IMG/VR virus record: IMGVR_UViG_3300046467_000835
Coordinates: 1-39,607 of that record
Reading direction: 5' to 3' (one strand)
Length of the DNA stretch: 39,607 bases
From: a virus
Under the pieces are notes generated by a model. The model worked only from the letters and a program-made list of their open reading frames with translations. It was not told the origin of the DNA and did not search any database. Shown here piece after piece: positions 1,290-39,607 of the stretch. The number at the start of each line of letters is the position of its first letter. Position 1 is the stretch's first letter. The position numbers and the translations under genes were made by a program.

Positions 1290-2554
1290 TGGCATTAGAA
1301 ACTGGTAATTATATTGATGATCTGGTAATCACAAACCCCACGGCTTCAGATCCAATTAGTCAGGGCGATGACCATCTTCAATTAATCAAGAAAGTTGTAA
1401 AGCAATCGTTCCCGTCTGTTGACGGAGCGGTACACGCTATACACCCCACCTCGACAGAACCAGCAACATCCCTTACCGCTGGCCTTATGTGGTTTGATAC
1501 AGCCGCAAATCTATTGAAGATAAGAAATGAAGCTAACGATGCGTGGGTTACATTAGCAGTATCCATCATAACAAGTAATTCAGTAGACGTTGATGCGGGA
1601 ACTGTTGACGGAGCGGTGATTGGCGGGACAACTCCTGCGGCAATTACAGGAACGACCTTAACTGGTAATACAAGTCTTGCATTAGCTACGGGCGCTACAG
1701 TCACTGGTATTGATAATGGTGCATTAGGTTCTAGTGCTACACTGCTTGCGACTCAGGGCGCAGTAAAGACCTATGTAGACGCTCAAATAACTGCGGAAGA
1801 TTTAGACTTTCAAGGTGATAGTGGGACAGGCGCGGTAGACTTAGATTCGCAAACATTGGATATAGCTGGTGGTTCTGGTATTACCACTACTGCTGGGTCA
1901 CAAACTCTGACCGTTGCTGGTGATGATGCAACTACGTCAGCAAAGGGCGTAGCCTCATTCTCCTCTGCCCACTTCTCAGTTTCTAGTGGTGCAGTATCCA
2001 TAGCTACTGATGGTATCGATGATACGCTAATTGACTTTGGTACAGGTGCTAATCAGGTTAGTACTGCTGACGTTCCAGAAGAAACAAACCTTTACTATAC
2101 TAATGTTAGGGCAGATGCTCGAATAGCAGCAGCAGATATTGGCGATCTAAATAATGTTAATACTGCTGGGCTTGCTGATAACGACATCTTAAAGTACGAC
2201 TCTGCATCTAGTGCTTTTGTAGCAGAACCCGATAGAATTGCTAACCATCTCACGACTAAAGGTGACTTGCTTGGTTATTCAACTACGGAGGCTCGTTTCC
2301 CTGTTGGGACGAATTCCTATCCTTTGGTTGCAAATTCCTCCGCAACCTTCGGAGTCAACTACGCACAACTAGCAACCGCTGGTATTGCGGATGATGCAGT
2401 AGGCGCTGGTCAACTAGCAGATACTGCAGTTTCGGCGGGTGCTTATACCCTTTCTTCAATAACAGTAGATGCTCAAGGGAGACTGACATCGGCATCTAGT
2501 GGTACTCCCGGCGCTACTGCTGGCTTCTCAGTTGCAATGGCGATTGCTCTCTAA
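1289..2554 (+). CDS. Tail fibre protein with phage fibre N-terminal domain
   Basis: The 421-residue product opens with a motif typical of phage fibre attachment domains (NYIDDLVITNPT...QGDDHLQLIKK, residues about 7-35), followed by a short helix. From residue about 95 it becomes low-complexity Ala/Gly/Thr/Ser sequence with repeating TVDGAVIGG and TTLTGNT patterns, typical of a trimeric beta-rich shaft. There is no C-terminal S74 chaperone. It is probably the proximal or scaffold fibre that carries the smaller glycine-rich fibres encoded downstream; that arrangement is inference. The start codon overlaps the adaptor stop. Confidence 0.8.
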   Translation: MALETGNYIDDLVITNPTASDPISQGDDHLQLIKKVVKQSFPSVDGAVHAIHPTSTEPATSLTAGLMWFDTAANLLKIRNEANDAWVTLAVSIITSNSVDVDAGTVDGAVIGGTTPAAITGTTLTGNTSLALATGATVTGIDNGALGSSATLLATQGAVKTYVDAQITAEDLDFQGDSGTGAVDLDSQTLDIAGGSGITTTAGSQTLTVAGDDATTSAKGVASFSSAHFSVSSGAVSIATDGIDDTLIDFGTGANQVSTADVPEETNLYYTNVRADARIAAADIGDLNNVNTAGLADNDILKYDSASSAFVAEPDRIANHLTTKGDLLGYSTTEARFPVGTNSYPLVANSSATFGVNYAQLATAGIADDAVGAGQLADTAVSAGAYTLSSITVDAQGRLTSASSGTPGATAGFSVAMAIAL

Positions 2555-2565
2555 AGGTAAATATT

Positions 2566-2907
2566 ATGGCACAAGACTTTACAAAAGACTACAAATCACA
2601 GGTTACTACTGCAGCGCATACGCTACGCACAGCTAACTCTAATGATGCGTTGATTGGCATTAGGCTAACAAACATTACAGCGAGTGCGGTTACTGTAGAC
2701 GTATGGATTGATGTAGCGGCTGCAGGATCAACAGCATCTGTAGTTTACATTGCTGATGACCTACAGATTCCCCCAAAGGCATCAGTTGAGTTGATACAGG
2801 GTGGCGCTAAGATAGTTATCCAGAGTACTGATCTTCTAAGGGTTCAGGCTTCTGCGGCAGATTCTATAGCGGCTTGGGTTAGTGTTGTAGACGCTATCTC
2901 AGCATAG
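2566..2907 (+). CDS. Putative beta-sandwich virion protein, 113 aa
   Basis: This 113-residue protein is rich in alternating Val/Thr/Ala and predicted beta strands (LIGIRLTNITASAVTVDVWIDV). Single small beta domains of this type occur as tail or head decoration proteins. It has no Cys, signal peptide or membrane segment. The start at 2566 follows an AAGGTAA ribosome site. It lies between the tail fibre and the fibre cassettes, so a structural role at the tail tip is likely. I do not recognise a specific family. Confidence 0.65.
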   Translation: MAQDFTKDYKSQVTTAAHTLRTANSNDALIGIRLTNITASAVTVDVWIDVAAAGSTASVVYIADDLQIPPKASVELIQGGAKIVIQSTDLLRVQASAADSIAAWVSVVDAISA

Positions 2908-2915
2908 GAGGCATT

Positions 2916-3092
2916 ATGGCTGGCGAAACAAATGGAACGCTGTATCTTAACAATCCGCCGGGTAAGGAAGGATTCTTTGAGACTGCTGCAACTATTGATG
3001 GAGACTACACGATTGCAGACAATGCAGTAATCGCTGGTCCCACAACCTTCACTGGAACCATAACAGTTACAGGAACACTGGTGATCGTATGA
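2916..3092 (+). CDS. Small fibre-associated protein, 58 aa
   Basis: A strong GGAGG at 2907-2911 precedes ATG 2916, and the gene ends in an ATGA overlap with the first glycine-rich fibre. The product contains LNNPPGKEGFFETAATI followed by short beta repeats (TIADNAV, TGTITVTGTLVIV). PPGK-G-FFETA segments occur in many small fibre or tail-tip proteins of marine phages as I remember them. It may be a separated fibre N-terminal domain that anchors the downstream cassettes. The ribosome site and both tight junctions support it as real. Confidence 0.7.
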   Translation: MAGETNGTLYLNNPPGKEGFFETAATIDGDYTIADNAVIAGPTTFTGTITVTGTLVIV

Positions 3093-3886
3093 GCAAGATT
3101 AATGTAGATACATGGGAACCTGAATCTGGTACTGCTGCTACTCTTATGGCAACTGGTGATACCGTTACGGTGCCGTCGGGTGCAAGTTTGGTGGTCGCAA
3201 GTGGAGCGACGATCAATATTACGGGTGCAACGCAGACGGGATTTCCTACTGGTGGCTTGCTTGGTCTTGTGGTTTATACGGGGGATGGCACATACACCAA
3301 AGGCGGAACTTCAAACGGAACAGCGGGTGATGAGGGAAGCGCAGATGTTACCAAAGTGATAATTGAAGTACAGGGTGGTGGTGGCGGAGGAGGAAGTTCG
3401 CCTTCTAGTTACCCCGAATATAGTCTAGGTGGTTCTGGTGGTGGTTATGCAAAGAAATTTATAGATGTAAGTTCTGTAACAGCTTCTGTTATTACTGTTG
3501 GTGCTGCAGGAGTAGGTTTTAACAGCTCATTAGGGGGGCAAGGGACTGATGGCGGGGATAGTTCTTGGGTTGACACCGCCTCCGGCGGATCATCAACAGT
3601 AACTGGTGTTAAGGGTGTTGGAGGGTATGCTAGTTATGGAATCGTGGTTGGTGGTTCTGCAACAGGCGGCGATATAAATATAAAAGGTGGAGATGCTGGT
3701 TGGGGTGGACAATACGGGACACTTGCTGGCGCCAGTATTCTCGGCATGGCTGGAAAGAATGGTTATGTCACTAGCGGCATTTCAACTGCGGGAGGCGGTT
3801 ATGGCGCTGGTGGCGGCGGAAGATACATAAACTATCCTGCTTCAAATGCGTCTCCCGGCATCGTATTAATTTGGGAGTATGCATGA
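3089..3886 (+). CDS. Glycine-rich tail fibre / receptor-binding protein 1
   Basis: This is the first of three related fibres of about 260 residues. Residues 1-55 form a beta-repeat N-terminal part (SGASLVVASGATINITGAT). From about residue 90 come poly-glycine runs (GGGGGGGSS, GGSGGGYAKK), then DVSSVTASVITVGAAG and a terminal IVLIWEYA. That design matches the glycine-rich domains that end many phage adhesins, where loops between polyglycine segments bind the receptor. It overlaps its neighbours at both ends. Cell-surface binding is inferred from the family type. Confidence 0.75.
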   Translation: MSKINVDTWEPESGTAATLMATGDTVTVPSGASLVVASGATINITGATQTGFPTGGLLGLVVYTGDGTYTKGGTSNGTAGDEGSADVTKVIIEVQGGGGGGGSSPSSYPEYSLGGSGGGYAKKFIDVSSVTASVITVGAAGVGFNSSLGGQGTDGGDSSWVDTASGGSSTVTGVKGVGGYASYGIVVGGSATGGDINIKGGDAGWGGQYGTLAGASILGMAGKNGYVTSGISTAGGGYGAGGGGRYINYPASNASPGIVLIWEYA

Positions 3887-4167
3887 TGAATAAATACGCG
3901 CATGTTGAAAATGGCATCGTAACGAATATTAGTCTATGGGATGGGGTTTGCGAGTACAACCCCGGAGAGAATGTGACGATGGTTCTTGCTGATGACAATG
4001 CCCGTATCGGCGGAACATACGATGGCACGTTCCACTTTGTAGAACCTCCCCGCCCAGAACCTACAGCAGAACAAGTAGCCGCAACCGAAGCAAAAGCAAG
4101 TGCCATTGAAAAACTAAAGGCTCTCGGCCTAAACGATGCTGAAATAGCCAGTATCACAGGAGGATAG
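3883..4167 (+). CDS. Fibre-assembly (Tfa-like) small protein 1
   Basis: This protein of about 94 residues has an N-terminal YAHVENGIVTNISLWDG beta segment, a conserved ADDNARIGGTYDGTFHFVEPP core and a helical tail ending EKLKALGLNDAEIASI. It pairs with the fibre just upstream, as the related small genes do in the next two cassettes. Such genes resemble tail-fibre assembly chaperones in place and pattern. The start is ATG 3883 in an ATGA overlap with the fibre stop, with GGGAG six bases upstream; ATG 3886 is an alternative. Confidence 0.65.
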   Translation: MMNKYAHVENGIVTNISLWDGVCEYNPGENVTMVLADDNARIGGTYDGTFHFVEPPRPEPTAEQVAATEAKASAIEKLKALGLNDAEIASITGG

Positions 4168-4168
4168 T

Positions 4169-4960
4169 ATGGCATCCGAAGTAAAAACAAATAAACTATC
4201 TCCTTCAACTGGAACTACGTTAAGCGTAGGAGACTCTGGAGACACATTAGCTTTAGCAACTGATGCTGTTACTGGGTTTAATGTCGGGTCAGATGCTGCT
4301 GGAGATGTTCTATATAACGATGGTACAGATTACACAAGGTTAGCCAAGCCGGGAACTCCTGCTGATGAAGTATTAACGTTTGCCACGGGCGCTACAGCAC
4401 CCAGTTGGGTTGCCGCTGGTGGTGGTGGGTTGAATTCTGTTCAAACATTCACGGCATCTGGAACATGGACAAGACCAGCCGACGTTACAAAAGTAATTAT
4501 GTATGTTACTGGTGGCGGAGGCGGTGGTAAGTCGGGGACAGCACCAACTTCAACATGTGGAGGGTTTTCTGGCTCAACTGCGATTAAGTTTTTAGATGTT
4601 TCTAGTATTTCAACTGCCACAATAACTATCGGGGGCGCTGGAGTCGCTGGGGCATCTCCAACAGCCGGAGGAAACTCTATTTGGTCAGACGGCACCAACA
4701 CTATTACTGGTGTAGGAGGAGGCGCAGGAACTAATTCGACTCAAAATACTGGCACTCGACCTACAGCAACAGGTGGTGATATTAATTTATCTGGTGGTAG
4801 TACAACCGCTAGTAATTATGCGTCCATGGGAAGTTATTGGGGTTCGGGGTCTAATGTAAATGCTGCTGGGTTAAATCCCGGAGAGGGAGGTTATGGGCCA
4901 TATTTTGGTACTGGAGGCAATGGCGCAGCGGGTATCCTTTATGTGCAGGAGTATAAATAA
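4169..4960 (+). CDS. Glycine-rich tail fibre / receptor-binding protein 2
   Basis: The second fibre paralogue has 263 residues. Its N-terminal half differs from fibres 1 and 3: it has a GDVLYNDGTDYTRLAKPGTP segment like those in fibre shaft proteins. Its C-terminal half shares the QTFTASGTWTRPADVTKVIMYV strand, GGGGGGK, DVSSISTATITIGGAG and a terminal ILYVQEYK. This shows mosaic exchange of N-terminal parts between related fibres. Separate receptor specificity of the three is an inference. Confidence 0.75.
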   Translation: MASEVKTNKLSPSTGTTLSVGDSGDTLALATDAVTGFNVGSDAAGDVLYNDGTDYTRLAKPGTPADEVLTFATGATAPSWVAAGGGGLNSVQTFTASGTWTRPADVTKVIMYVTGGGGGGKSGTAPTSTCGGFSGSTAIKFLDVSSISTATITIGGAGVAGASPTAGGNSIWSDGTNTITGVGGGAGTNSTQNTGTRPTATGGDINLSGGSTTASNYASMGSYWGSGSNVNAAGLNPGEGGYGPYFGTGGNGAAGILYVQEYK

Positions 4961-5238
4961 TGGCTAATTACGCGGTAGTGAAAAACGGCTATGTAGAAAA
5001 CATGATTGTCTGGGATGGTGTGCGTGAATTGTCCATACCCGATGCTGAGTTAATACTTGCTGATGACAATGCTCGTATCGGCGGAACATACGACGGTGCA
5101 TTCCACTTTGTAGAACCACCTGTTCCAGAACCGACAGAAGAACAGGTAGCAAAGCAAGAGCGACTAGACTCTGTCAAATCAAAACTTGAGGCTCTTGGCC
5201 TGACTACAGAAGAAGTGCAGGAGGCTTTTGGATTATGA
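4960..5238 (+). CDS. Fibre-assembly (Tfa-like) small protein 2
   Basis: This 92-residue relative of the products of 3883-4167 and 6014-6340 starts MANYAVVKNGYVENMIVWDG. It shares the LADDNARIGGTYDGAFHFVEPP core and ends in a charged helix (SKLEALGLTTEEVQEAFGL). The start overlaps the fibre stop as TAATG after a GGAG site, and its own stop overlaps the next fibre start as ATGA. Chaperone function for fibre 2 is inferred from pairing; a structural cap is the alternative. Confidence 0.65.
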   Translation: MANYAVVKNGYVENMIVWDGVRELSIPDAELILADDNARIGGTYDGAFHFVEPPVPEPTEEQVAKQERLDSVKSKLEALGLTTEEVQEAFGL

Positions 5239-6014
5239 GTGAAGTTAAAGTTAATAAAATCTCTCCTCGATCATCGACTACTGTAACACTGGGCGATGCT
5301 TCTGATGTATTTCAACTACCAGCATCAGCAGAGATTGACATAGCTAGTGGAGCAACGCTAGATGTTAATGGGACTATTGATATCACGGGTGCGACAGCTA
5401 CTGGGTTTCCTAGTAGTGGGTTTGCTTCCTTACAACTGTTTGTCTCTACAGGTACTTGGACAAAACCTGCTGATATAACAACAATAATAGTAGAGGTACA
5501 AGGTTCTGGTGGTGGTAGCGGATCACTTGATGCTTCAGGATATGTTGGTGGCTCTGGCGGCGGTGGTGCTTATGCATTGAAAGTCCTAGATGTTACAAAC
5601 ATTGATACAGCGACCGTTACTGTTGGTGCAGGAGGTCTTGCCGCAGCGGCTGGCAATACATCTTCTTTTGCTAAATTAGCAGGAAGTGGATCATTCACAA
5701 CTGTAACTTGCGCTGGTGGTAATGGTGGCGCAAATGGTTCTGGCGCTCAAGGAAATGGCGGAACTGGTGCTGCGACCCCGACAACAGGTGACATTAATTT
5801 AGCAGGTGGCGATGGCGCTCATGGTAGTGCAAATTTCCTTACCGCTATTGGTGGGTCAGGTCAACTTGGTCAAGCAACACTTCACAATATTGGCACCTCT
5901 CAAGCAGCAAGAACCCCAGTAGGTTATGGGGCGGGGTCTGGTTCTGGCACTGGCAGCTCACAGGCTGGTGGTGTAGCGGCTACTGGGACAGTAAGAGTTT
6001 GGGAGTATAAATAA
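5235..6014 (+). CDS. Glycine-rich tail fibre / receptor-binding protein 3
   Basis: The third fibre paralogue has 259 residues. The N-terminal IASGATLDVNGTIDITGAT segment resembles fibre 1. The C-terminal part shares STGTWTKPADITTIIVEVQ, GGGSG runs, VLDVTNIDTATVTVGAGG and a terminal TVRVWEYK. The loops between glycine runs are unlike those in fibres 1 and 2, as expected for receptor-contact loops. The gene is joined to its neighbours by start-stop overlaps. It is likely a tail-tip adhesin. Confidence 0.75.
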   Translation: MSEVKVNKISPRSSTTVTLGDASDVFQLPASAEIDIASGATLDVNGTIDITGATATGFPSSGFASLQLFVSTGTWTKPADITTIIVEVQGSGGGSGSLDASGYVGGSGGGGAYALKVLDVTNIDTATVTVGAGGLAAAAGNTSSFAKLAGSGSFTTVTCAGGNGGANGSGAQGNGGTGAATPTTGDINLAGGDGAHGSANFLTAIGGSGQLGQATLHNIGTSQAARTPVGYGAGSGSGTGSSQAGGVAATGTVRVWEYK

Positions 6015-6340
6015 TGGCTAACTACGCAGTAGTAAAGAATGGTGTGGTAGAAAATATAATAGTTTGGGATGGAATTGCAGCTTTTTCTGCACCTGATTCC
6101 GAACTGATTGAAGTCACGGCAGATACCCGCGTCGGCGGAACATACGACGGTGCATTCCATTATGTAGAACCTGATCCCGGGCCAGACACGCGCACTTATG
6201 ACGAGAAACGCAAAGCAGAATACCCATCTATAGATGAACTGACTGTAGCTCTTTGGGAAGGGGTTGTAGAAGAAAGAATGGCTGCGGTTACTTCACTAGA
6301 AGGTAAGCGTCAGGCAGTTAAAGCTAAATATCCTAAGTGA
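6014..6340 (+). CDS. Fibre-assembly (Tfa-like) small protein 3, extended
   Basis: This 108-residue protein begins MANYAVVKNGVVENIIVWDG and carries the RVGGTYDGAFHYVEP core of its two paralogues. It then has a different C-terminus: DTRTYDEKRKAEYPSIDELTVALWEG, plus a helical segment ending AKYPK. A YPSI-ELxVALWE motif is common in other phage fibre-associated proteins, so its tail seems recombined from another source. The TGA stop overlaps a GTG start of the next small gene. Confidence 0.65.
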   Translation: MANYAVVKNGVVENIIVWDGIAAFSAPDSELIEVTADTRVGGTYDGAFHYVEPDPGPDTRTYDEKRKAEYPSIDELTVALWEGVVEERMAAVTSLEGKRQAVKAKYPK

Positions 6341-6501
6341 GTTTTATAGTAGGGATAGCAAGAATAGCGCATTGGTTTCTAATTCCTTTCTTGATAATCT
6401 GGATGACAATAGCACCAAACGATATGCTACCTAACTGTCTTATCGAGGCTAAAGAAATGGTATCTAATAAATTTAGTGGGAGTTATTTCGGGGAAGAATA
6501 A
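6337..6501 (+). CDS. Small membrane protein, 54 aa
   Basis: This gene starts at GTG 6337 in a GTGA overlap with the gene before and stops at TAA 6499-6501 in a TAATG overlap with the HesB-like gene. The product has one strong hydrophobic segment (HWFLIPFLIIWMTIAP, residues about 12-27) and a polar C-terminus with one Cys. Tight junctions on both sides support it as real. Function is unknown; its place next to an iron-sulfur carrier protein is noted without a claim. Confidence 0.55.
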   Translation: MSFIVGIARIAHWFLIPFLIIWMTIAPNDMLPNCLIEAKEMVSNKFSGSYFGEE

Positions 6502-6824
6502 TGGTTACAGTAACAGACAGCGCAATGGATAAGGTTGCTAACCTATTAGAAAGCCAACCAAGCATGGTGGGCATCCGTGTGTTTGTATATGGGGGAGGTT
6601 GTAGTGGAATGAAACACAGTATGACCTTTGCTGACGCCAGAGAAGAGCGAGACATTGAACTTGCATCCAATCTCTACATAGACCCAGTAGCGATCCAATT
6701 CATGGATGGTGCCACGATAGATTACGATGATTCAACTATGAACCCTACCTTTAGATTCCTTGATGTGTTTCAGGCGCAGGGCGGTTCAGGTACATGCGGT
6801 GGTTGTGGGGCTGCTGGTGGATAA
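6501..6824 (+). CDS. HesB/IscA-like iron-sulfur A-type carrier, variant cysteine motif
   Basis: This 107-residue protein has the Fe-S biogenesis (HesB/IscA/ErpA) fold pattern: an N-terminal helix, FVYGGGCSGM with Cys34, a DPVAIQFMDGATIDYDD segment, a FRFLDVF strand and a C-terminal cysteine pair. In the family three cysteines (one central, two in a C-terminal CGCG) hold an Fe-S cluster or iron. Here the end reads TCGGCGAAGG, so the pair is Cys99/Cys102 with two residues between instead of one. It sits among tail genes between a small membrane protein and the hub-like gene, so a virion role is as possible as Fe-S delivery in the host. Confidence 0.85.
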   Translation: MVTVTDSAMDKVANLLESQPSMVGIRVFVYGGGCSGMKHSMTFADAREERDIELASNLYIDPVAIQFMDGATIDYDDSTMNPTFRFLDVFQAQGGSGTCGGCGAAGG

Positions 6825-6848
6825 GGGAAGCTATTTCGGAGAACAGTA

Positions 6849-8681
6849 TTGGCATTAATTGCTTTAGAAAATGCTGGACAGACAGGAATTGTCCAAGACA
6901 TCCAGCCGTGGCAGTTGCCCATCAATGCGTGGAGCGATGGCAACAATGTACGGATGGAGCATGGCTCTGTATTTAAATGCAAGGGCTATTCTTCGGTCAT
7001 GGAAACCTGTCCTATCGCCCCTTATCATATTGGCTACGTTAAGGCATCAGGAAATAAATACTGGATAGCCTGCGGTCTTGCAGCTATCCATGTCTTCGAC
7101 GCTACAGAAAAGACAACCAACCTAGATGGTGGTATTGGTGCAGCGGCTACAGGTATTACAGTGGATAGTGTAATTGGTTTTGAGACTGCTGGCACTATAA
7201 CTATAGGCTCCGAAGATATTCCCTATACAGGCATTTCAACAAACACGTTTACGGGATGTGTAAGGGGAGGCGGTGCTACTACCCATTTAGATGGAGCAAC
7301 AGTAACCAGAACCAAGAAGTGGTATGACATCACCAGAGGTGGTGGGGCTGGCGGTGCATATTCAGCTACTGCTGCGGAGACTTGGACTTCTACGGTTATA
7401 GGCGGTGTGCTTGTAGTAACCAATGGGGTTGACGAACCTCAGTTTTGGGAACTTGTTGATGGTGTGCCAGCAACCATTCAGAAGATGCAGAACCTAACTA
7501 ACTGGCCTGCGGCGACAGAATGTAAATCAATGAGAGCGTTCCGCTCGTTCTTGGTTTCCCTCAATATAACCGCATCAAATGTTAATTTTCCAAGAGTAGT
7601 TAAGTGGTCAACAGAAGCCGCCATACAGGCAGTTCCCTCATCTTGGAACGAGGCAGACGCCACCGTAGATGCTGGTGAATACGAATTAGCAGACACTAAA
7701 GGAGCAATACTAGACGGTCTTCCATTGCGTGATTCCTTTATGATCTATAAGGAAGATGCTGTCTATTCAATGACTTATGTCGGTACACCTTTTATCTTTT
7801 CATTTAGGCAGCTTTCACCTTCAGTTGGGATTCTCTCTAAAAACTGTGTTGCCGAGTTCGACGGAGGCCATTTTCTTTTCGGTAATGGTGACATTTACCT
7901 GAACGATGGTCAAAGGATTACATCCCTATTACCCCACAAAATGCGGGATCATGTATTCGCGCTAGTAGACGGGGGTCAAATTGAGAAGTCTTTTGTAGTC
8001 GCTGACTACGGAAGAACAGAGATGTTAGCTTGCTTTGTTTCTACAAGTTCTGGTGCTGATAACCAATGCGACAAGGCTTTGATATGGAATTGGGTTAATA
8101 ATACTTTTTCCATTAGGGACATACCCAATCTTGCACATATTGGTTACGGAAGTGTGAAGAATGAGTTGGCCTATACAACTTGGGCCGCTGCTGCTTTACT
8201 CGTGCCACCCCCAACATGGGCAACTGCTATTGGAGCATGGGCAGTATCATGGGATGATGTGGAGAATGTACTTCTTTTTGCTGACCCTGTAAGCACAAAA
8301 CTATACAGGGATGGATCTGGAAATAAGGAAGATACTACGGATATGGTATCCTATATCGAAAGAACAGGCTTGACATTCACCGCCCAAAATCAGCCAGACC
8401 AATCAACGGTAAAACGCGTAAAGGCTATCTGGCCCAAGATGACCATAGCGAGTAGCGATACAGTAAATTTCTACATAGGCACACAGATGTCTACAGAAGA
8501 AGCCATCACATGGAGTTCTCCAATAACTTTTAATCCAGATAGTCAATCCAAGGTATCTTGTAGAGCGAGTGGAAAACTTTATGGCATTAAGATTGAATCT
8601 ACTGGTGACACTTCTTGGAGACTAGATGGGTTGGAATTTGAGTTAGACGATGCGGGTAGGCGTGGTTCGAGGTCTTACTAA
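6849..8681 (+). CDS. Large tail hub/nozzle-like structural protein
   Basis: This 610-residue, beta-rich protein has repeated strand-turn patterns such as PLRDSFMIYKEDAVYSMTY and GGHFLFGNGDIYLNDG, suggestive of a beta-propeller like podovirus tail hub or nozzle proteins (P22 gp10 type). The start is TTG 6849 with GGAG at 6838-6841, seven bases upstream; no better start exists. It ends in a TAATG overlap with the next gene. A role in closing and stabilising the tail after packaging is inferred from size, composition and position. Confidence 0.65.
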   Translation: MALIALENAGQTGIVQDIQPWQLPINAWSDGNNVRMEHGSVFKCKGYSSVMETCPIAPYHIGYVKASGNKYWIACGLAAIHVFDATEKTTNLDGGIGAAATGITVDSVIGFETAGTITIGSEDIPYTGISTNTFTGCVRGGGATTHLDGATVTRTKKWYDITRGGGAGGAYSATAAETWTSTVIGGVLVVTNGVDEPQFWELVDGVPATIQKMQNLTNWPAATECKSMRAFRSFLVSLNITASNVNFPRVVKWSTEAAIQAVPSSWNEADATVDAGEYELADTKGAILDGLPLRDSFMIYKEDAVYSMTYVGTPFIFSFRQLSPSVGILSKNCVAEFDGGHFLFGNGDIYLNDGQRITSLLPHKMRDHVFALVDGGQIEKSFVVADYGRTEMLACFVSTSSGADNQCDKALIWNWVNNTFSIRDIPNLAHIGYGSVKNELAYTTWAAAALLVPPPTWATAIGAWAVSWDDVENVLLFADPVSTKLYRDGSGNKEDTTDMVSYIERTGLTFTAQNQPDQSTVKRVKAIWPKMTIASSDTVNFYIGTQMSTEEAITWSSPITFNPDSQSKVSCRASGKLYGIKIESTGDTSWRLDGLEFELDDAGRRGSRSY

Positions 8682-10479: not shown

Positions 10480-11445
10480 ATGGGCGGCGGATCACAAACA
10501 ACTAGAACAGAACCCTGGGACGCGCAGAAACCCTATCTTAAATATGGTATGGGCGAAGCTCAGCGCATGTATACTATGGGCGTTCCTGATTACTATTCGG
10601 GGAAAAGCATAGCTGGATTCGACCCAGCGCAAGAAGCTGCTCAAGCATACACTCTAGGTTACACTAAGGGCACCAGACCAGCAGAGATGCAAAAAGCTGC
10701 TGAAACCCAAGGCATGCAGCTTATGGGTGGTGATGTTGATTACTCTTCAGGGAACTTCGGTAGAATGGCGACTGCTTTGGGTGATCAAGCTAAAACGCAA
10801 TTAACATCAAATGTTCTTCCAGGAATAAGACAGCAGATGGTTCAATACCAGCCCGGAGGAAGCTCTAGAGGTGATATAGTGCAAGGAAACGCTATTGCTG
10901 CTGCAAACCAACAGATGACGAATAAGTTAGCAGAGATGTATGGAGGCGCATACACTCAGGCGCAGGGAATGCGTCCTGGCGCTGTAGGGATGTATCCGTC
11001 ATTAATGTCGGCTCCATTAGGTATCTCTGGAGCTATGGAAGATGTTGGCGCTGCAAGGCAAGACATGACTCAGAGAGGGCTAGATGAAGGGGTGTCCAGA
11101 TATAAGTATGACGCTACTAAGGGACAACAGGCTCTCACCAACTATATGGCTGGCATATCGGGTGATTACGGATCTACTACACAACAGCCTGGACCTAGTG
11201 GGTTACAGACTCTGGGAACGATTGCCTCTATAGCGTCTATGTTCTCAGATGAACGCTTGAAAGAGGGTGTAGAACAGGTAGGGGTCCATAAGGGATTTAA
11301 TATATACGAATATAATTACATATGGAGTCCTAAGAGGTGGATCGGAGTCATTGCTCAAGAGGTTGAAAAGATTATGCCTGAAGCGGTTATTAAGATTAAC
11401 GGATATAGGCTTGTTAATTACGGCAAGCTGTTCGGAGCCACATAA
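10480..11445 (+). CDS. Virion protein with C-terminal S74 intramolecular chaperone
   Basis: The 321-residue product has a Gly/Gln/Met-rich, mostly helical body (PAQEAAQAYTLGYTKG..., residues 1-245). A C-terminal peptidase-S74 domain follows, with the cleavage-site signature FSDERLKE near residues 250-257, then GFNIYEYNYIW and GVIAQEVEKIMPEAV. S74 domains help trimeric fibres fold and cut themselves off at the Ser of this motif. The body looks like an internal or needle protein more than a beta-helical fibre. GGAGA precedes the start. Confidence 0.75.
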   Translation: MGGGSQTTRTEPWDAQKPYLKYGMGEAQRMYTMGVPDYYSGKSIAGFDPAQEAAQAYTLGYTKGTRPAEMQKAAETQGMQLMGGDVDYSSGNFGRMATALGDQAKTQLTSNVLPGIRQQMVQYQPGGSSRGDIVQGNAIAAANQQMTNKLAEMYGGAYTQAQGMRPGAVGMYPSLMSAPLGISGAMEDVGAARQDMTQRGLDEGVSRYKYDATKGQQALTNYMAGISGDYGSTTQQPGPSGLQTLGTIASIASMFSDERLKEGVEQVGVHKGFNIYEYNYIWSPKRWIGVIAQEVEKIMPEAVIKINGYRLVNYGKLFGAT

Positions 11446-17609: not shown

Positions 17610-17889
17610 ATATAATGGGCCAGAGCGTCGAGGCAACGGTGGATGGCATATGTCAAAGAGCCTAAGTGTCTCCCATCTATTAGGTACTCTTGCTATTGCT
17701 GTGGGATTCTTTACTTATGTAACTGGAATTGAACAAGATACCATTCGCAATCACCATGAAATCAAAAGTTTAGATCAGCGTATGGATCGCTCAGATGCTA
17801 GAAATTCTGAGCAATTTGGAGAGATAAAAGACATGTTGAATTCATTATCTACAAAAATTGATAACTTGGTCCATCGACGTGGACCATGA
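17602..17889 (+). CDS. Single-pass membrane protein with coiled coil, 95 aa
   Basis: The start is GTG 17602 behind a GAGGGG site. After a polar ERRGN segment comes one membrane span (LLGTLAIAVGFFTYVTGI, about residues 26-43) and then a long helix with heptad-like spacing (IKSLDQRMDRSDARNSEQFG). Small phage proteins of this shape are holin-associated or spanin-like proteins. It overlaps the HesB/IscA gene by ATGA. The lysis role is inference. Confidence 0.6.
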   Translation: MSEYNGPERRGNGGWHMSKSLSVSHLLGTLAIAVGFFTYVTGIEQDTIRNHHEIKSLDQRMDRSDARNSEQFGEIKDMLNSLSTKIDNLVHRRGP

Positions 17890-18197
17890 ACATAACTCCT
17901 TCAGCAGATCAAAAAATAGAAGAGATCTTGGGGGATTCAGAACGATTGCGAATCTCTGTCAACGGAGGAGGATGCAGTGGTTTCACGGTAGATCTTTCAC
18001 GAGAACAAGAGAAGAAGTCTACCAAAGACGATATATGGATCAATCCAAATATACTGATCGACTCCATCTCGGCGGAGTATTTGTCCAAGGCAACTCTGGA
18101 TTGGACTGATGACGCATTCTCGCCAACATTCAAATTTGACATACCCAACACTAAATCATGTGGTTGCGGCAACTCTTTCACCCTTGAGGAAAGCTAA
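17886..18197 (+). CDS. HesB/IscA-like iron-sulfur A-type carrier, canonical motif
   Basis: This 103-residue protein has the full A-type carrier signature: NGGGCSGF with Cys30, a SAEYLSKATLDW segment, a FKFDIPN strand and the C-terminal CGCGNSF with Cys92 and Cys94. These three cysteines bind iron or an Fe-S cluster in the IscA/ErpA/SufA family. It is a clear but distant paralogue of the product of 6501-6824, whose pair is spaced differently. It sits inside a membrane-protein group with overlaps on both sides (ATGA before, TAATG after), so it is cotranscribed with late genes. Confidence 0.9.
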   Translation: MNITPSADQKIEEILGDSERLRISVNGGGCSGFTVDLSREQEKKSTKDDIWINPNILIDSISAEYLSKATLDWTDDAFSPTFKFDIPNTKSCGCGNSFTLEES

Positions 18198-21442: not shown

Positions 21443-21783
21443 AAAACAACTCCTTCATCTGGAGGGAATTTAGCCTTGAGCCCGTCTAATTTCAACACAC
21501 CAGCCCTGGTAGCTCTGTCCAGTGTATCAAAGATGAAGGTGAATTGCCAGTCCAGAATGTCCGCATCTCCGTTGTGAGCGTCGGCGTGGCACCTATGGCA
21601 CAAAGGCATAACGAATATATCCGAAGCTTTGTATCCCATACCGCCGCAAAATGGGGCGTTTCTGCTTGTTAAATGATGGGCCACTATAGTATCGTTCAAC
21701 ATAGCACACGCAGCACAAGGTAGCTTGCTGACCCATCTCAAATACTGTTTGCACTCCCACCTTTTCTTTTTTTCTAAACTCAT
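21439..21783 (-). CDS. HNH-type zinc nuclease (DUF968/Ref-like)
   Basis: The 114-residue product has a zinc-finger HNH arrangement: LPCAACAML (Cys23, Cys26), IVAHHLTS (His36, His37), GYKASDIFVMPLC and CHRCHADAHNGD. This order matches the small phage HNH proteins related to the RecA-dependent nuclease Ref. It probably nicks or cuts DNA during recombination or packaging. It starts four bases inside the ribonucleotide reductase stop. Confidence 0.8.
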   Translation of the reverse strand: MSLEKKKRWECKQYLRWVSKLPCAACAMLNDTIVAHHLTSRNAPFCGGMGYKASDIFVMPLCHRCHADAHNGDADILDWQFTFIFDTLDRATRAGVLKLDGLKAKFPPDEGVVL

Positions 21784-23651
21784 ATCTCACAAGCTCCAGC
21801 AGTACAAGCCAGCTCCTGGCTTCCTGTGGTGTTGTCGCTTTCTTCGACAACAGCGTCCCAGTCTATGGCAAGGTTAGATTTCTTTAACATTTCAGTATAT
21901 TCTTCTGAGCTTATTTCTTCGTATGGAGCCGCTTCGTATATATGAGCGTCATCCGCTTTTGGTAAAAAACTAACCCCACTCAGTATATCAAAGTTCTCCC
22001 AACACCATGCCCCTACAGCCAGCCACTCGTCCTCTTCGATGTAGATTGTAACGCTTGGTTTGTGTTCGCACCAGTGAACTGAAAACTTCTTCCAAACTTC
22101 CAGATGTTCTAGCGCACTAACCTTATCCTTTGTGATGGATTTTGCGGGAGCCTTCATAGGGAACTCAAACACCAAAGCGTCCTTGTTGTATGGGTCTGGT
22201 ATGAAGGGTTGTCCTGCGCTGATTAAGGCTTCATTTAGCGGGTCTTTGATGTCTTGCCTTACTCTTCTTATATAGTGCTTGGAATACGATGGGTGAAGCC
22301 CGGACCCCGCAACTCCAACTAACTGACTAACGGTTCCAGAAGGTTTAATACAGGTCGTAGCTACAGACTGCTCCACCTTTAACTTCCTAGCCCAGAGCTG
22401 GTTTGTTTCAACAACGTGCATCTTCAGGTCTTCCAGGTCAGCAGGGGTGGCATTTAAGATTGCGGGACAGTCAAAGACTCCCGTAAAGCTAACACCAAGT
22501 AGCCTCTCTTCCTCTGCGTTACGCTTCCAGACGGGACGAACATACCTGAAGTCTGTGAGGGTGGATTGATAGGTTCCCAGGATTGTAGCTAATCGAACTT
22601 TGCGTAGAATCTTGGGTAGGGTGTCCGAGGGCCTGAGAACAACCTCAGACAGGTTGCATAAGCCACAGCTCCTGAGAATCACTTCACTGCATGGGTTACA
22701 CCCAAACTCATGGTCGGTGTCTCTCCTTTCTGGAGCAAGGTCTTTAGCTGCTTGGCGATTGAAAATACCCCTCTCCCCGCTCTTCGATTCATAGAGGGCT
22801 ACCCACTCCCTCATAAATATCCCAATGTCTGGTTTCTCTGTGTAGCATACGGAATTATTTGCCAGGGCTCTCTGTGGGTTCTCTATGAACCACTGCCCCA
22901 TCTTAGCCCTTTGCATACGCTCATCTGTAAGGTTGCTCAAGCTTAGCTCTGCCGCTCTACGAACCCCCCCGACTACTACAGCTTCTCCATTAAAGCAGAG
23001 AAGGTCGTGGCACTCTATGCTGGTGAGCTTTCGTCCAGAAGCATTTTGGAATATACGAATATACTGGTTAAACAATCTCTTCAGTGGATCTGGCCCAGAG
23101 GCTCTTCCGCCAAAGGTTTTAAGTCGAGCCCCAGAGGGTCTGATTCTAGAGAAGTCTATTTTGGGGATTAGCCCTTGGTACAGCAGGCTAATCAACTCCC
23201 GTAGGGCGCTGGCCCAACCAATCTTACTGTCTCGTACTACGATAGTGGTATCGGTATCATGGAAGGAATCTGATACGTCAGGTAGTTTGCTTATAAATTG
23301 CCTTTCTACACTAAACCCCACGCCGGTCCCGCAAAGCAGGACATAGAGGTTTTCATCAAAGGCCCTAACATGGTCCACAGCAATGAATGAGCAGTTGTAT
23401 CCAGCCATGTGATCTCTTTCCAGAGCTGGCCCAGCAGTCATCAGAGCTCTCATGCTTGGCATGATTTCCATATCCAATATAGCTTGCTTCACCTCATCTG
23501 GCAGGGGCAGCTTTCTACCCTTGTGTGAAAGGGTTTCTTCCCAAAAACTACAGTACCTGTCTACAGTTTCTTCCCATGTCTCACGCCTTCCCTCTGAATC
23601 AAGGTAACGAGCATATCGGCTCTTGTGAATAAATCTCTGGTATTCGTCCAC
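21780..23651 (-). CDS. nrdJ: Adenosylcobalamin-dependent (class II) ribonucleotide reductase
   Basis: This 623-residue enzyme makes deoxyribonucleotides using a B12-generated radical. NPCSE holds the thiyl-radical Cys321 and Glu323. Cys332 (CGLCNLSE, 11 residues on) and Cys87 (YNCSF) form the redox pair. The C-terminal Cys616/Cys621 pair (CTAGAC) has the spacing of the reducing tail in the monomeric Lactobacillus RTPR. There is no class I metal site or second subunit. Starting at GTG 23651, it overlaps the nuclease gene before it. It lets the phage recycle host ribonucleotides without oxygen but depends on B12. Confidence 0.92.
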   Translation of the reverse strand: MDEYQRFIHKSRYARYLDSEGRRETWEETVDRYCSFWEETLSHKGRKLPLPDEVKQAILDMEIMPSMRALMTAGPALERDHMAGYNCSFIAVDHVRAFDENLYVLLCGTGVGFSVERQFISKLPDVSDSFHDTDTTIVVRDSKIGWASALRELISLLYQGLIPKIDFSRIRPSGARLKTFGGRASGPDPLKRLFNQYIRIFQNASGRKLTSIECHDLLCFNGEAVVVGGVRRAAELSLSNLTDERMQRAKMGQWFIENPQRALANNSVCYTEKPDIGIFMREWVALYESKSGERGIFNRQAAKDLAPERRDTDHEFGCNPCSEVILRSCGLCNLSEVVLRPSDTLPKILRKVRLATILGTYQSTLTDFRYVRPVWKRNAEEERLLGVSFTGVFDCPAILNATPADLEDLKMHVVETNQLWARKLKVEQSVATTCIKPSGTVSQLVGVAGSGLHPSYSKHYIRRVRQDIKDPLNEALISAGQPFIPDPYNKDALVFEFPMKAPAKSITKDKVSALEHLEVWKKFSVHWCEHKPSVTIYIEEDEWLAVGAWCWENFDILSGVSFLPKADDAHIYEAAPYEEISSEEYTEMLKKSNLAIDWDAVVEESDNTTGSQELACTAGACEI

Positions 23652-38283: not shown

Positions 38284-38493
38284 ATGGCAAATATAGGACA
38301 ACCACCCAGCAAGGGTAGTGCAACAGCTATTGGCCCCGATATGAACCCGCCGCCTTATAGTGAAGGGGAGCCTAAACTTAGAAAGTATGGCCCCGGTAAG
38401 GATGGTGCTTTAGGCTCTACTGAACACAACGGAAGTATAGATAATGTCATAAGTACACAAGTTGCTAAGGTAGGCAAAGTGTATGGCTGGTAA
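38284..38493 (+). CDS. Small virion-region protein, 69 aa
   Basis: This Pro/Gly-rich protein (GQPPSKGSATAIGPDMNPPP) ends with a short ordered part (DNVISTQVAKVGKVYGW). AGGAGA precedes the start. It is the complete version of the gene cut at the window's left edge. Its place right after the capsid suggests a minor head protein; no domain is recognised. Confidence 0.7.
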   Translation: MANIGQPPSKGSATAIGPDMNPPPYSEGEPKLRKYGPGKDGALGSTEHNGSIDNVISTQVAKVGKVYGW

Positions 38494-38635
38494 AAAAAGT
38501 AAGATTTCAAAACAGAGTTCAATCAAGAAATCAAAGACTACAAAACCCCCAACCAAAGAAGAAAGTCTTTCCAGGGTTGTAAGGGACATGGAGGCTATTA
38601 CGACAGGCAAGGATTCGAGGCATCATTTAAGATGA
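38483..38635 (+). CDS. Small basic protein, 50 aa (second allele)
   Basis: Allele of the gene at 54-206. It has the same length and the same ATGA junction with the next gene. Differences are Gly/Ser, Val/Ile and Arg/Lys changes near residues 12-15, plus silent changes. This is the copy continuous with the capsid gene. Confidence 0.7.
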   Translation: MAGKKSKISKQSSIKKSKTTKPPTKEESLSRVVRDMEAITTGKDSRHHLR

Positions 38636-38952
38636 AGAAAAATGCTGTAGCGAAATCTACTCCAGTAGAGACATTTCATTCCAATGCGGATGAGACAGAG
38701 TTTACTATAAATACCTATCAGGATTGTGAACCTATACTGGACGAAAACAAGAAAGCATATAATAATTATGGCGACTTGCTTACTCCAGGCAAGGCTGGCG
38801 AAGGTGTAAGGGTTGCATCTATACCGCTAAATGTATGGACTCAGTGGATGAAAGAAACCAATGGGGCAATAGAGAAAGATCATAAACTTATGAAGAAGTA
38901 TCTAAACGACCCTGATAACAAATATTTTAGAACGACACCAACGAGGGTTTAA
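38632..38952 (+). CDS. Conserved virion-region protein, 106 aa (second allele)
   Basis: Allele of the gene at 203-523, differing by a single Glu/Asp change at the protein level. The near-perfect protein conservation against clear silent DNA divergence shows selection on the protein. Confidence 0.8.
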   Translation: MKKNAVAKSTPVETFHSNADETEFTINTYQDCEPILDENKKAYNNYGDLLTPGKAGEGVRVASIPLNVWTQWMKETNGAIEKDHKLMKKYLNDPDNKYFRTTPTRV

Positions 38953-38954
38953 TT

Positions 38955-39050
38955 ATGTGGTTATATGCACATGGTGTTTTAGGACACACGCAAAGAAACT
39001 ATAGAATTCTGAATCAAAGCGTATTCTTCTCGAAACGTAATGTGACCTAA
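38955..39050 (+). CDS. Tiny conserved ORF, 31 aa (second allele)
   Basis: Allele of the ORF at 526-621, with the same frame, length and TAATG junction to the adaptor gene. The end reads KRNVT instead of KRNIP. Confidence 0.6.
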   Translation: MWLYAHGVLGHTQRNYRILNQSVFFSKRNVT

Positions 39051-39607
39051 TGGCTATAGGCACTTACAGCGAACTGCAGACTGCTGTAGCTAACTGGTTA
39101 GACAGGGATGATCTGACAGATAGGATAACAGAGTTTATTGCTTTAACGGAGGCCCGAATGAATCGGATTCTCCGCTTGGCGATAATGCTGAATGTAGATC
39201 AGACTACATTAGGAGGAGCCGCTGCATTAGTGGGCGGAACTAGGGATTATGCATTGCCTTCTGGTTATCTTCAGATGTTAGATTTTCATTTGAGGACTGA
39301 TCCTATAACTACGTTATCCTACATCACTCCTGAGAATATGAATAGGATGTGGGCTGGTAGTCAAGTTGGAAGGCCGGAAGCCTATACAATCTTTTCTGAC
39401 AATTCTAGTGGAACACCTATAAAGAAGGTGAAAATTGGTCCCTCTCCAGATTCTGCTTATAACTATTCAATGATGTTTTACAAGAAGATTGATGCTCTCT
39501 CGATTACTAATACTACAGAGCAGATGTTGACAAACAATCCAGATGTATATCTGTACGGAGCGTTGATGGAGGCAGAGCCATTCCTGATGAATGACGCTAG
39601 AGTTCAA
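39050..39607 (+). CDS. Head-to-tail adaptor, 3'-truncated at the window end (second allele)
   Basis: The first 186 codons of the adaptor gene are present, and the window ends before its stop. Changes against 621-1289 cluster at residues 100-142 (for example SQVGRPEAYT against SQGGKPLAYT, and MMFYKK against ITFFKK). After that it is identical. The rest of this gene is read from 1179 on in the circular map. Confidence 0.85.
   Translation, partial: MAIGTYSELQTAVANWLDRDDLTDRITEFIALTEARMNRILRLAIMLNVDQTTLGGAAALVGGTRDYALPSGYLQMLDFHLRTDPITTLSYITPENMNRMWAGSQVGRPEAYTIFSDNSSGTPIKKVKIGPSPDSAYNYSMMFYKKIDALSITNTTEQMLTNNPDVYLYGALMEAEPFLMNDARVQ

Follow-up and report, generated by a model that had tools for sequence, protein, structure and literature searches.

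Genes and order of the three-fibre array

In our study, the analysed stretch of DNA (the window) was a whole IMG/VR virus record, IMGVR_UViG_3300046467_000835, of 39,607 bases. The phage is marine and was found to contain three consecutive tail-fibre genes, with a small gene for a likely folding helper (chaperone) after each. Each fibre contained a short N-terminal tag and a C-terminal tip, and each small protein contained an N-terminal head and a C-terminal tail. The genes of the array and of its two flanks are on the + strand. The left border of the array is p2916 (2916–3092; 58 amino acids, aa), which is present directly before slot 1 in the relatives. The slot 1 fibre (3089–3886; 265 aa), identified as an open reading frame (ORF) and by alignment, contained the tag MSKINVDTWEPE and a glycine-rich (Gly-rich) tip. 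Its putative chaperone gene starts at 3883 or 3886 and ends at 4167, and clustering of heads and tails assigned to it a head of the Gly-tip type and a tail of the LGL type. The slot 2 fibre (4169–4960; 263 aa) contained the tag MASEVKTNKLSP and a Gly-rich tip (PF21722, 9.9e-06), followed by the slot 2 chaperone gene (4960–5238). The slot 3 fibre (5235–6014; 259 aa) contained the tag MSEVKVNKISPR and a Gly-rich tip (PF21722, 8.3e-09), followed by the terminal chaperone gene (6014–6340), which by alignment and clustering has a head of the same family and a YPS...KYPK tail. The right border is p6337 (6337–6501; 54 aa), a protein that contains a single hydrophobic segment.

The three fibre genes and three small genes had been placed at these positions in a preliminary description made from the window alone, and all six were confirmed as ORFs; the glycine-rich fibre ends IWEYA, VQEYK and VWEYK also agreed with that description. 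The fibres of the window are 41–43% identical to each other and the small proteins 49–57%. The genes from 2916 to 6824 are on one strand and stop-start coupled, with gaps of -4 to +1 nucleotides (nt), and the fibre stop overlaps the small-gene start by 1–4 nt. This coupling suggests that the genes of the array are co-expressed.

The relatives were collected by scanning IMG/VR with the 610-aa protein of the right flank, the small proteins, p6337 and p2916. After the removal of contained copies 145 loci were left (cited by L numbers), and the comparison set consisted of 143 non-redundant cassettes from these relatives, which are metagenomic contigs. Untagged cassettes were taken in only if a small gene followed; the counts of chaperone absence refer to tagged cassettes only. 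Cultured relatives were unusable for the comparison because searches against named phages were empty or weak: the first 12 kb of the window gave no DNA match, and its small proteins gave none or weak partial matches.

The order of the array was p2916, fibre 1, fibre 2, fibre 3 and p6337, and each fibre was usually followed by a small gene. In the closer relatives the array was bounded by p2916 and p6337, or by the iron-sulphur (Fe-S) gene or the 610-aa protein gene (T610) where p6337 was missing. Nearly all complete arrays contained three fibres, and the tag order was 1-2-3 except in L131 and L132 (1-3-2) and L160 (slot 2 missing). The flanks of L001, L002, L049 and L054 were 84–88% identical to those of the window at the DNA level, with completely different fibre tips. 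The preliminary description had taken related phages that always carry the same three units in fixed order, with no sign of exchange, as the result that would speak against cassette swapping; in the relatives the order was nearly fixed and the contents were exchanged.

Extra sets of fibre and small genes were found after p6337 in L009, L065, L067, L072, L098 and L100, often ending in a small gene of 93–101 aa. They suggest a second array with different tags.

Slot tags and exchangeable tips of the fibres

The slot 1 fibres started with MSKINV(N/D)TWEPE or MSLLNVD, the slot 2 fibres with MASEVKTN and the slot 3 fibres with MSEVKV(D/N). The mean identity of the tags was 65–80% within slots and 9–29% between slots. 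Among tagged non-redundant fibres whose upstream gene is known, p2916 was present upstream of 18 of the 18 slot 1 fibres and of none of the slot 2 or slot 3 fibres.

Tips were compared over the residues after position 70, and were taken as shared at an identity of at least 55% over at least 80% of the length; families of tips and heads were defined by single-linkage clustering. Shared tips were found in 58 pairs of fibres, 34 of which carried them under different tags. In the extreme pairs, tips up to 94–95% identical were joined to tags of 12–24% identity. The tip of slot 2 in L060 was 94% identical to that of slot 1 in L129, and the same value was found between L150 and slot 1 of L154. Slot 2 of L075 and L119 shared a tip at 88%, and slot 1 of L002 and slot 3 of L077 at 81%. 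The slot 2 tip of the window was 67% identical to a tip of L105, and the tags of the two are unrelated. The tip family was no significant predictor of the tag (adjusted Rand index 0.036). Together these comparisons indicate that the tip is exchanged between phages and between the three positions and that the putative docking end stays.

Six tip families were common, and among the tested members a Pfam name was obtained for the Gly-rich family only. The label 'C1q-like' for tip family 1 came from reading by eye and was dropped, as Pfam gave no match among the tested members.

Two-part build of the small gene

The first 42 residues (head) and the last 42 residues (tail) of the small proteins were clustered separately, and a double dissociation was found, in which the head tracks the tip family and the tail tracks the position. 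Tip and head are locked to each other: the adjusted Rand index (ARI) was 0.989 in 47 tagged cassettes (permutation P 0.0002), 0.88 over all 128 cassettes, 0.86 with one cassette per locus, and 0.74 after heads were thinned to below 60% mutual identity. The Gly-rich tip was followed by head 0 in 44 of 46 cases, tip 1 by head 2 in 21 of 23, tip 2 by head 1 in 20 of 20, tip 4 by head 3 in 12 of 13, and tip 5 by head 4 in 7 of 7. The head showed no association with the slot (ARI 0.036, P 0.15). The tail is linked to position. The KYPK tail was present in all 37 small genes directly before p6337, across six head families; the LGL tail was found in 12 of 12 small genes of slot 1 and the KYPK tail in 21 of 21 of slot 3.

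Limits of the exchanged unit

In pairwise DNA comparisons of swapped cassettes, the homology started at fibre codons 23–60 where both tags are short, and later with long tags. Where the tails differ, it stopped 94–206 nt into the small gene. The breakpoints thus lie inside the fibre gene and inside the small gene, so the constant blocks consist of a small-gene tail and the tag of the next fibre. These joints were as conserved as the backbone (85–92% DNA identity). In the window, the joint of chaperone 1 tail and slot 2 tag (4066–4223) was 89% identical to L054 and L076, with different flanking tips. The joint of chaperone 2 tail and slot 3 tag (5139–5264) was 86.5% identical to L049 and, over 5162–5264, 91% identical to L002, again with different tips. 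The right joint, formed by the terminal chaperone tail and p6337 (6205–6504), was 86–92% identical to L001, L002, L005 and L049. At the left end, the initial ~170 nt of the slot 1 fibre are kept with the backbone (2512–3258, 86%) and the gene is divergent after that. Before slot 3 of L101 the head is gone, but a short piece of the tail (TTEEVQEAFGL) is retained. Read from these limits, the exchanged unit begins within the fibre gene and ends within the chaperone gene, so that a tip is transferred along with its matching head. The earlier proposal of cassette swapping by recombination therefore stands as regards the contents, since different tips occur in backbones of 84–88% identity and the same tip occurs in different slots; it does not stand as regards the unit, which is not the whole cassette but starts and ends inside genes.

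The preliminary description had also proposed, as kept joints, a 15-base block and the boundary between fibre and small gene. The 15-mer CGGCGGAACATACGA was found at 4008, 5079 and 6133 and is above chance, with zero shuffled sequences containing a match even when one mismatch was tolerated; all three copies are perfect, none being the one-base variant mentioned earlier. The 20-mer GGAGTATAAATAATGGCTAA was likewise present at two fibre/chaperone joints (4948 and 6002), with no copy expected by chance. Around the 15-mer and the 20-mer, longer homologous blocks of 71 and 49 nt were found in three copies. The 15-mer encodes GGTYD, a conserved motif of the small-protein head, and is no stand-alone DNA element. 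The 15-mer and the fibre/chaperone boundary are both internal to the exchanged unit and travel with it, so the 15-mer is not the joint, and this part of the proposal has to be replaced by the three constant joints given above. Both are conserved in the window because its three tips are all Gly-rich with the same head family. That the 15-mer serves as a target of site-specific recombination was rejected on the same grounds, since it codes for a motif of a single head family and is carried along in the exchanged unit.

Relation of the small gene to S74 tips and to Pam3 proteins

Four slot 1 fibres belonged to clusters with the S74 self-chaperone domain (L049, L149, L157 and L160), and none of the four was followed by a small gene. 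S74 was above the Pfam cut-off in all three that were tested (L049, L149 and L160), and L157 clusters with L149. The absence of the small gene with S74 tips gave a Fisher P of 0.008 with the first counts, which are conservative: they overstated the chaperone-less fibres, as ORF calling had missed genes in L080, L074 and L160. A small gene was found after all Gly-rich tips with readable downstream DNA. The reading of the small genes as chaperones, already given in the preliminary description, thus receives indirect support from their absence after self-chaperoned tips.

The fibres are homologous to fibre gp24 of cyanophage Pam3 (hidden Markov model E 2e-10, with a strong Gly-rich composition bias; hhalign 95%). 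For PF21722 (Gly_rich_2), with a cut-off of 24.3 bits, fibres 2 and 3 passed with 26.1 and 36.2 bits, and fibre 1 was below it with 17.0. The model of the slot 3 fibre had a pLDDT (predicted local distance difference test) of 90, and its best match among solved chains was the Pam3 fibre (Foldseek E 1.7e-08, probability 1.00); the template modelling (TM) score of the monomer model against that fibre was 0.49–0.55. By analogy, the fibres would be trimeric. In Pam3, gp24 needs the two-domain chaperone gp25, whose variable N-terminal domain binds the tip and whose conserved helical C-terminal domain trimerises (PMC9608196). The model of the slot 2 small protein (pLDDT 83, predicted TM score 0.45) contained beta strands at residues 2–33 followed by helices at 60–90. 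We conclude by analogy that the small protein probably works like Pam3 gp25; its membership in the family of Pam3 gp25 and Tfa chaperones is unproven. The three small proteins of the window matched no Pfam tail-fibre assembly family.

Proposed mechanism and alternative explanations

We consider it likely that the locus is a three-slot adhesin array in which the tip and the matching chaperone head are exchanged, and the tags and tails stay. Each slot would hold a tail fibre whose short N-terminal tag docks at a particular site of the virion and whose C-terminal tip binds the receptor, followed by a small chaperone gene. The head of the chaperone would fit the tip family and aid its folding, and the helical tail would be constant for the position. 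New specificities would enter through homologous recombination in the conserved flanks. On the left, the crossover would fall in the fibre gene downstream of the tag; on the right, it would fall in the chaperone gene and separate the head from the tail. Tip and matching head would thus move jointly, leaving tags and tails in place. It is plausible from the intact, stop-start-coupled genes that three fibres, and hence three receptor specificities, are displayed at once. More tentatively, and as a possibility slightly short of an even chance, a common environmental pool of units, each made of a tip and its matching head, may circulate through the multi-slot arrays of many marine phages, so that one virion would carry three independently replaceable specificities, and a single recombination event could change any of them with folding and docking intact. 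The array as proposed would follow a simple rule set for changing receptors without loss of assembly, with the docking tag and chaperone tail fixed and the tip and head mobile. It would offer, in concrete genetic terms, a reason why host-recognition genes vary so strongly among marine phages, and the pairing table obtained across contigs predicts which chaperone fits which tip.

Several observations weigh against this interpretation. Several fibres of tip family 1 and two in tip family 2 had neither a small gene nor an S74 domain. In tip family 1 the small gene was absent after roughly one in two tagged fibres, so dependence on it varies, as reported for the fibres of phages A5 and V22 (PMC10579305). 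Sequence comparison of the small protein with Pam3 gp25 gave nothing significant (hhalign probability 0.3), and the top match of the slot 2 model, chain a of 7ypx (the Pam3 chaperone), was weak (E 0.79). A few pairs, such as L002_6510 with L100, share the tip but not the head. The permutation tests ignore phylogeny, although the occurrence of several non-homologous heads with one tail is independent of these tests. As the relatives are metagenomic contigs, assembly chimeras could mimic some of the exchanges.

We regard as unlikely the alternative that the small protein stays permanently on the tip as an adhesin or cap, in the manner of S16 gp38 or Mu Tfa, with the specificity residing in both proteins. 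The match of head to tip family would be expected of such an adhesin too, and some known fibre partners (Mu Tfa, S16 gp38) remain on the virion (PMC7289586). However, the small protein is absent where the S74 self-chaperone is present, the GGTYDG motif is conserved within the head family, unlike a receptor-binding surface, and the predicted two-part layout resembles that of Pam3 gp25, which leaves the virion (PMC9608196). A highly unlikely alternative would make the slot-specific chaperone tail an address that hands the fibre to its own docking site, beyond DNA linkage to the next gene. The tail type is indeed constant for the position across unrelated heads, but in L132, L079 and L074 the last fibre of the array bears a slot 2 tag, and the terminal tail is found on the chaperone of this fibre. 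The tail therefore follows the downstream neighbour and not the tag of its own fibre, and the address was rejected as a leading idea.

Plain duplication and divergence, in which three paralogous pairs are inherited vertically and owe their differences to point mutations and to selection acting on loops alone, would account for the finding that the three pairs of the window all belong to the Gly-rich family and are 41–57% identical. We give it a very slight probability, as close relatives with flanks of 84–88% identity have non-homologous tips in the same slot, and tips up to 94–95% identical occur under unrelated tags. The slightest probability is given to phase variation or alternative expression, in which an inversion or a site-specific recombination event would let the phage make only one fibre at a time. 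The repeated conserved blocks that flank the variable ends could be read in this way, but the genes between p2916 and the Fe-S gene, both included, share one strand and are stop-start coupled, and no recombinase was found in the partial sample of window proteins that was tested. Inversion was rejected, as the inverted repeats in 2500–7000 were short and imperfect only. The exchange of tip and matching head between fixed tags and tails remains the interpretation that we prefer.

Flanking genes and other features of the window

The left flank of the array contained the gene for an SU10-type adaptor protein of the conserved left backbone (621–1289; PF24175 1.5e-33; phrog_2941), a fibre/appendage-like protein gene (1289–2554; phrog_6465 tail protein over residues 1–49), which is also found in relatives, and a small conserved gene (2566–2907) present in relatives. 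On the right, p6337 gave no Pfam match and was 69–94% identical in aligned relatives; in 54 viral loci it marks the right border of the array, also where the genes beyond are entirely different. It is followed by an Fe-S cluster biosynthesis (HesB/IscA-like) gene (6501–6824; PF01521 1.2e-09), which is variably present among relatives between the array and the next backbone gene and is absent in L001 and L005. A second, different PF01521 (HesB/IscA-like) gene was found at 17886–18197. The right backbone gene T610 (6849–8681) encodes a virion structural protein of 610 aa (phrog_3287, 5e-116). A separate fibre-like gene at 10480–11442 carries its own S74 self-chaperone domain, and the phage may therefore have a fourth receptor-binding protein. 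The 623-aa protein at 21780–23651 gave partial matches to B12-dependent ribonucleotide reductase.

The window contained an SU10-type capsid gene besides the adaptor gene, and its portal was ~40% identical to the portals of LUZ24-like phages and of Pelagibacter phage HTVC106P. The ends of the record (1–1178 and 38430–39607) are one stretch, 91.9% identical without gaps. The repeat suggests a genome that is circular or terminally redundant and was closed with the copy of another strain, and the contig may mix strains. The scan of prokaryote genomes gave one contig, L170 (8.4 kb), from a metagenome-assembled genome of Candidatus Thioglobus autotrophicus, with a Gly-rich fibre and a small gene near a terminase-like gene. 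This is a weak hint at a SUP05-type host and too little for host assignment.

Comparison with known systems

Previous studies have reported multi-gene receptor clusters with slot exchange in Ackermannviridae, two-part chaperones in Pam3 and Mu (Tfa), and marine host-recognition islands (PMC3909814). In the literature searched, we found no description of tandem fibre-chaperone slots in which a tip and its chaperone head form the exchange unit; as the combination was not found, we judge the array to be a new variation on known themes.

The tailspike proteins TSP1–TSP4 of Ackermannviridae are alike in that several receptor-binding genes have conserved N-terminal docking parts and exchangeable receptor domains, and similar receptor domains occur in both tsp1 and tsp4. 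They differ in being large enzymatic tailspikes with XD/TD branching domains and some intramolecular chaperones, and the accessible part of the same source (PMC11721090) describes no separate cognate chaperone genes; the array of the window has short tags and co-exchanged heads. The fibres of the window had no Pfam or PHROG match to XD/TD branching domains or enzymatic beta-helix tips. The Alteromonas phages V22 and A5, also marine, have a fibre with a cognate chaperone as a module that occurs across distant families, but with a single primary fibre and no multi-slot array, and a slot-specific chaperone tail is not described in the accessible parts of these reports (PMC7289586, PMC10579305). 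The marine metaviromic islands were recognised as variable by read recruitment, and the available text on them (PMC3909814) gives no rules for slots or chaperones. Tfa of Mu and lambda is likewise a chaperone of two parts, the N-terminal one of which matches the fibre tip (PMC9608196), whereas the small proteins of the window are much smaller and have several non-homologous heads on one tail. Pam3 gp24/gp25 (PDB 7ypx, 7yfw) is alike in its homologous Gly-rich fibre, in the chaperone gene directly downstream, and in a chaperone with a variable N-terminal head for the tip and a C-terminal tail that is helical in gp25 and predicted to be so in the slot 2 small protein. Pam3 has one fibre-chaperone pair, whereas the window contained three tandem pairs with different slot tags, and the relatives of its array have several unrelated tip families with recombinable tips.

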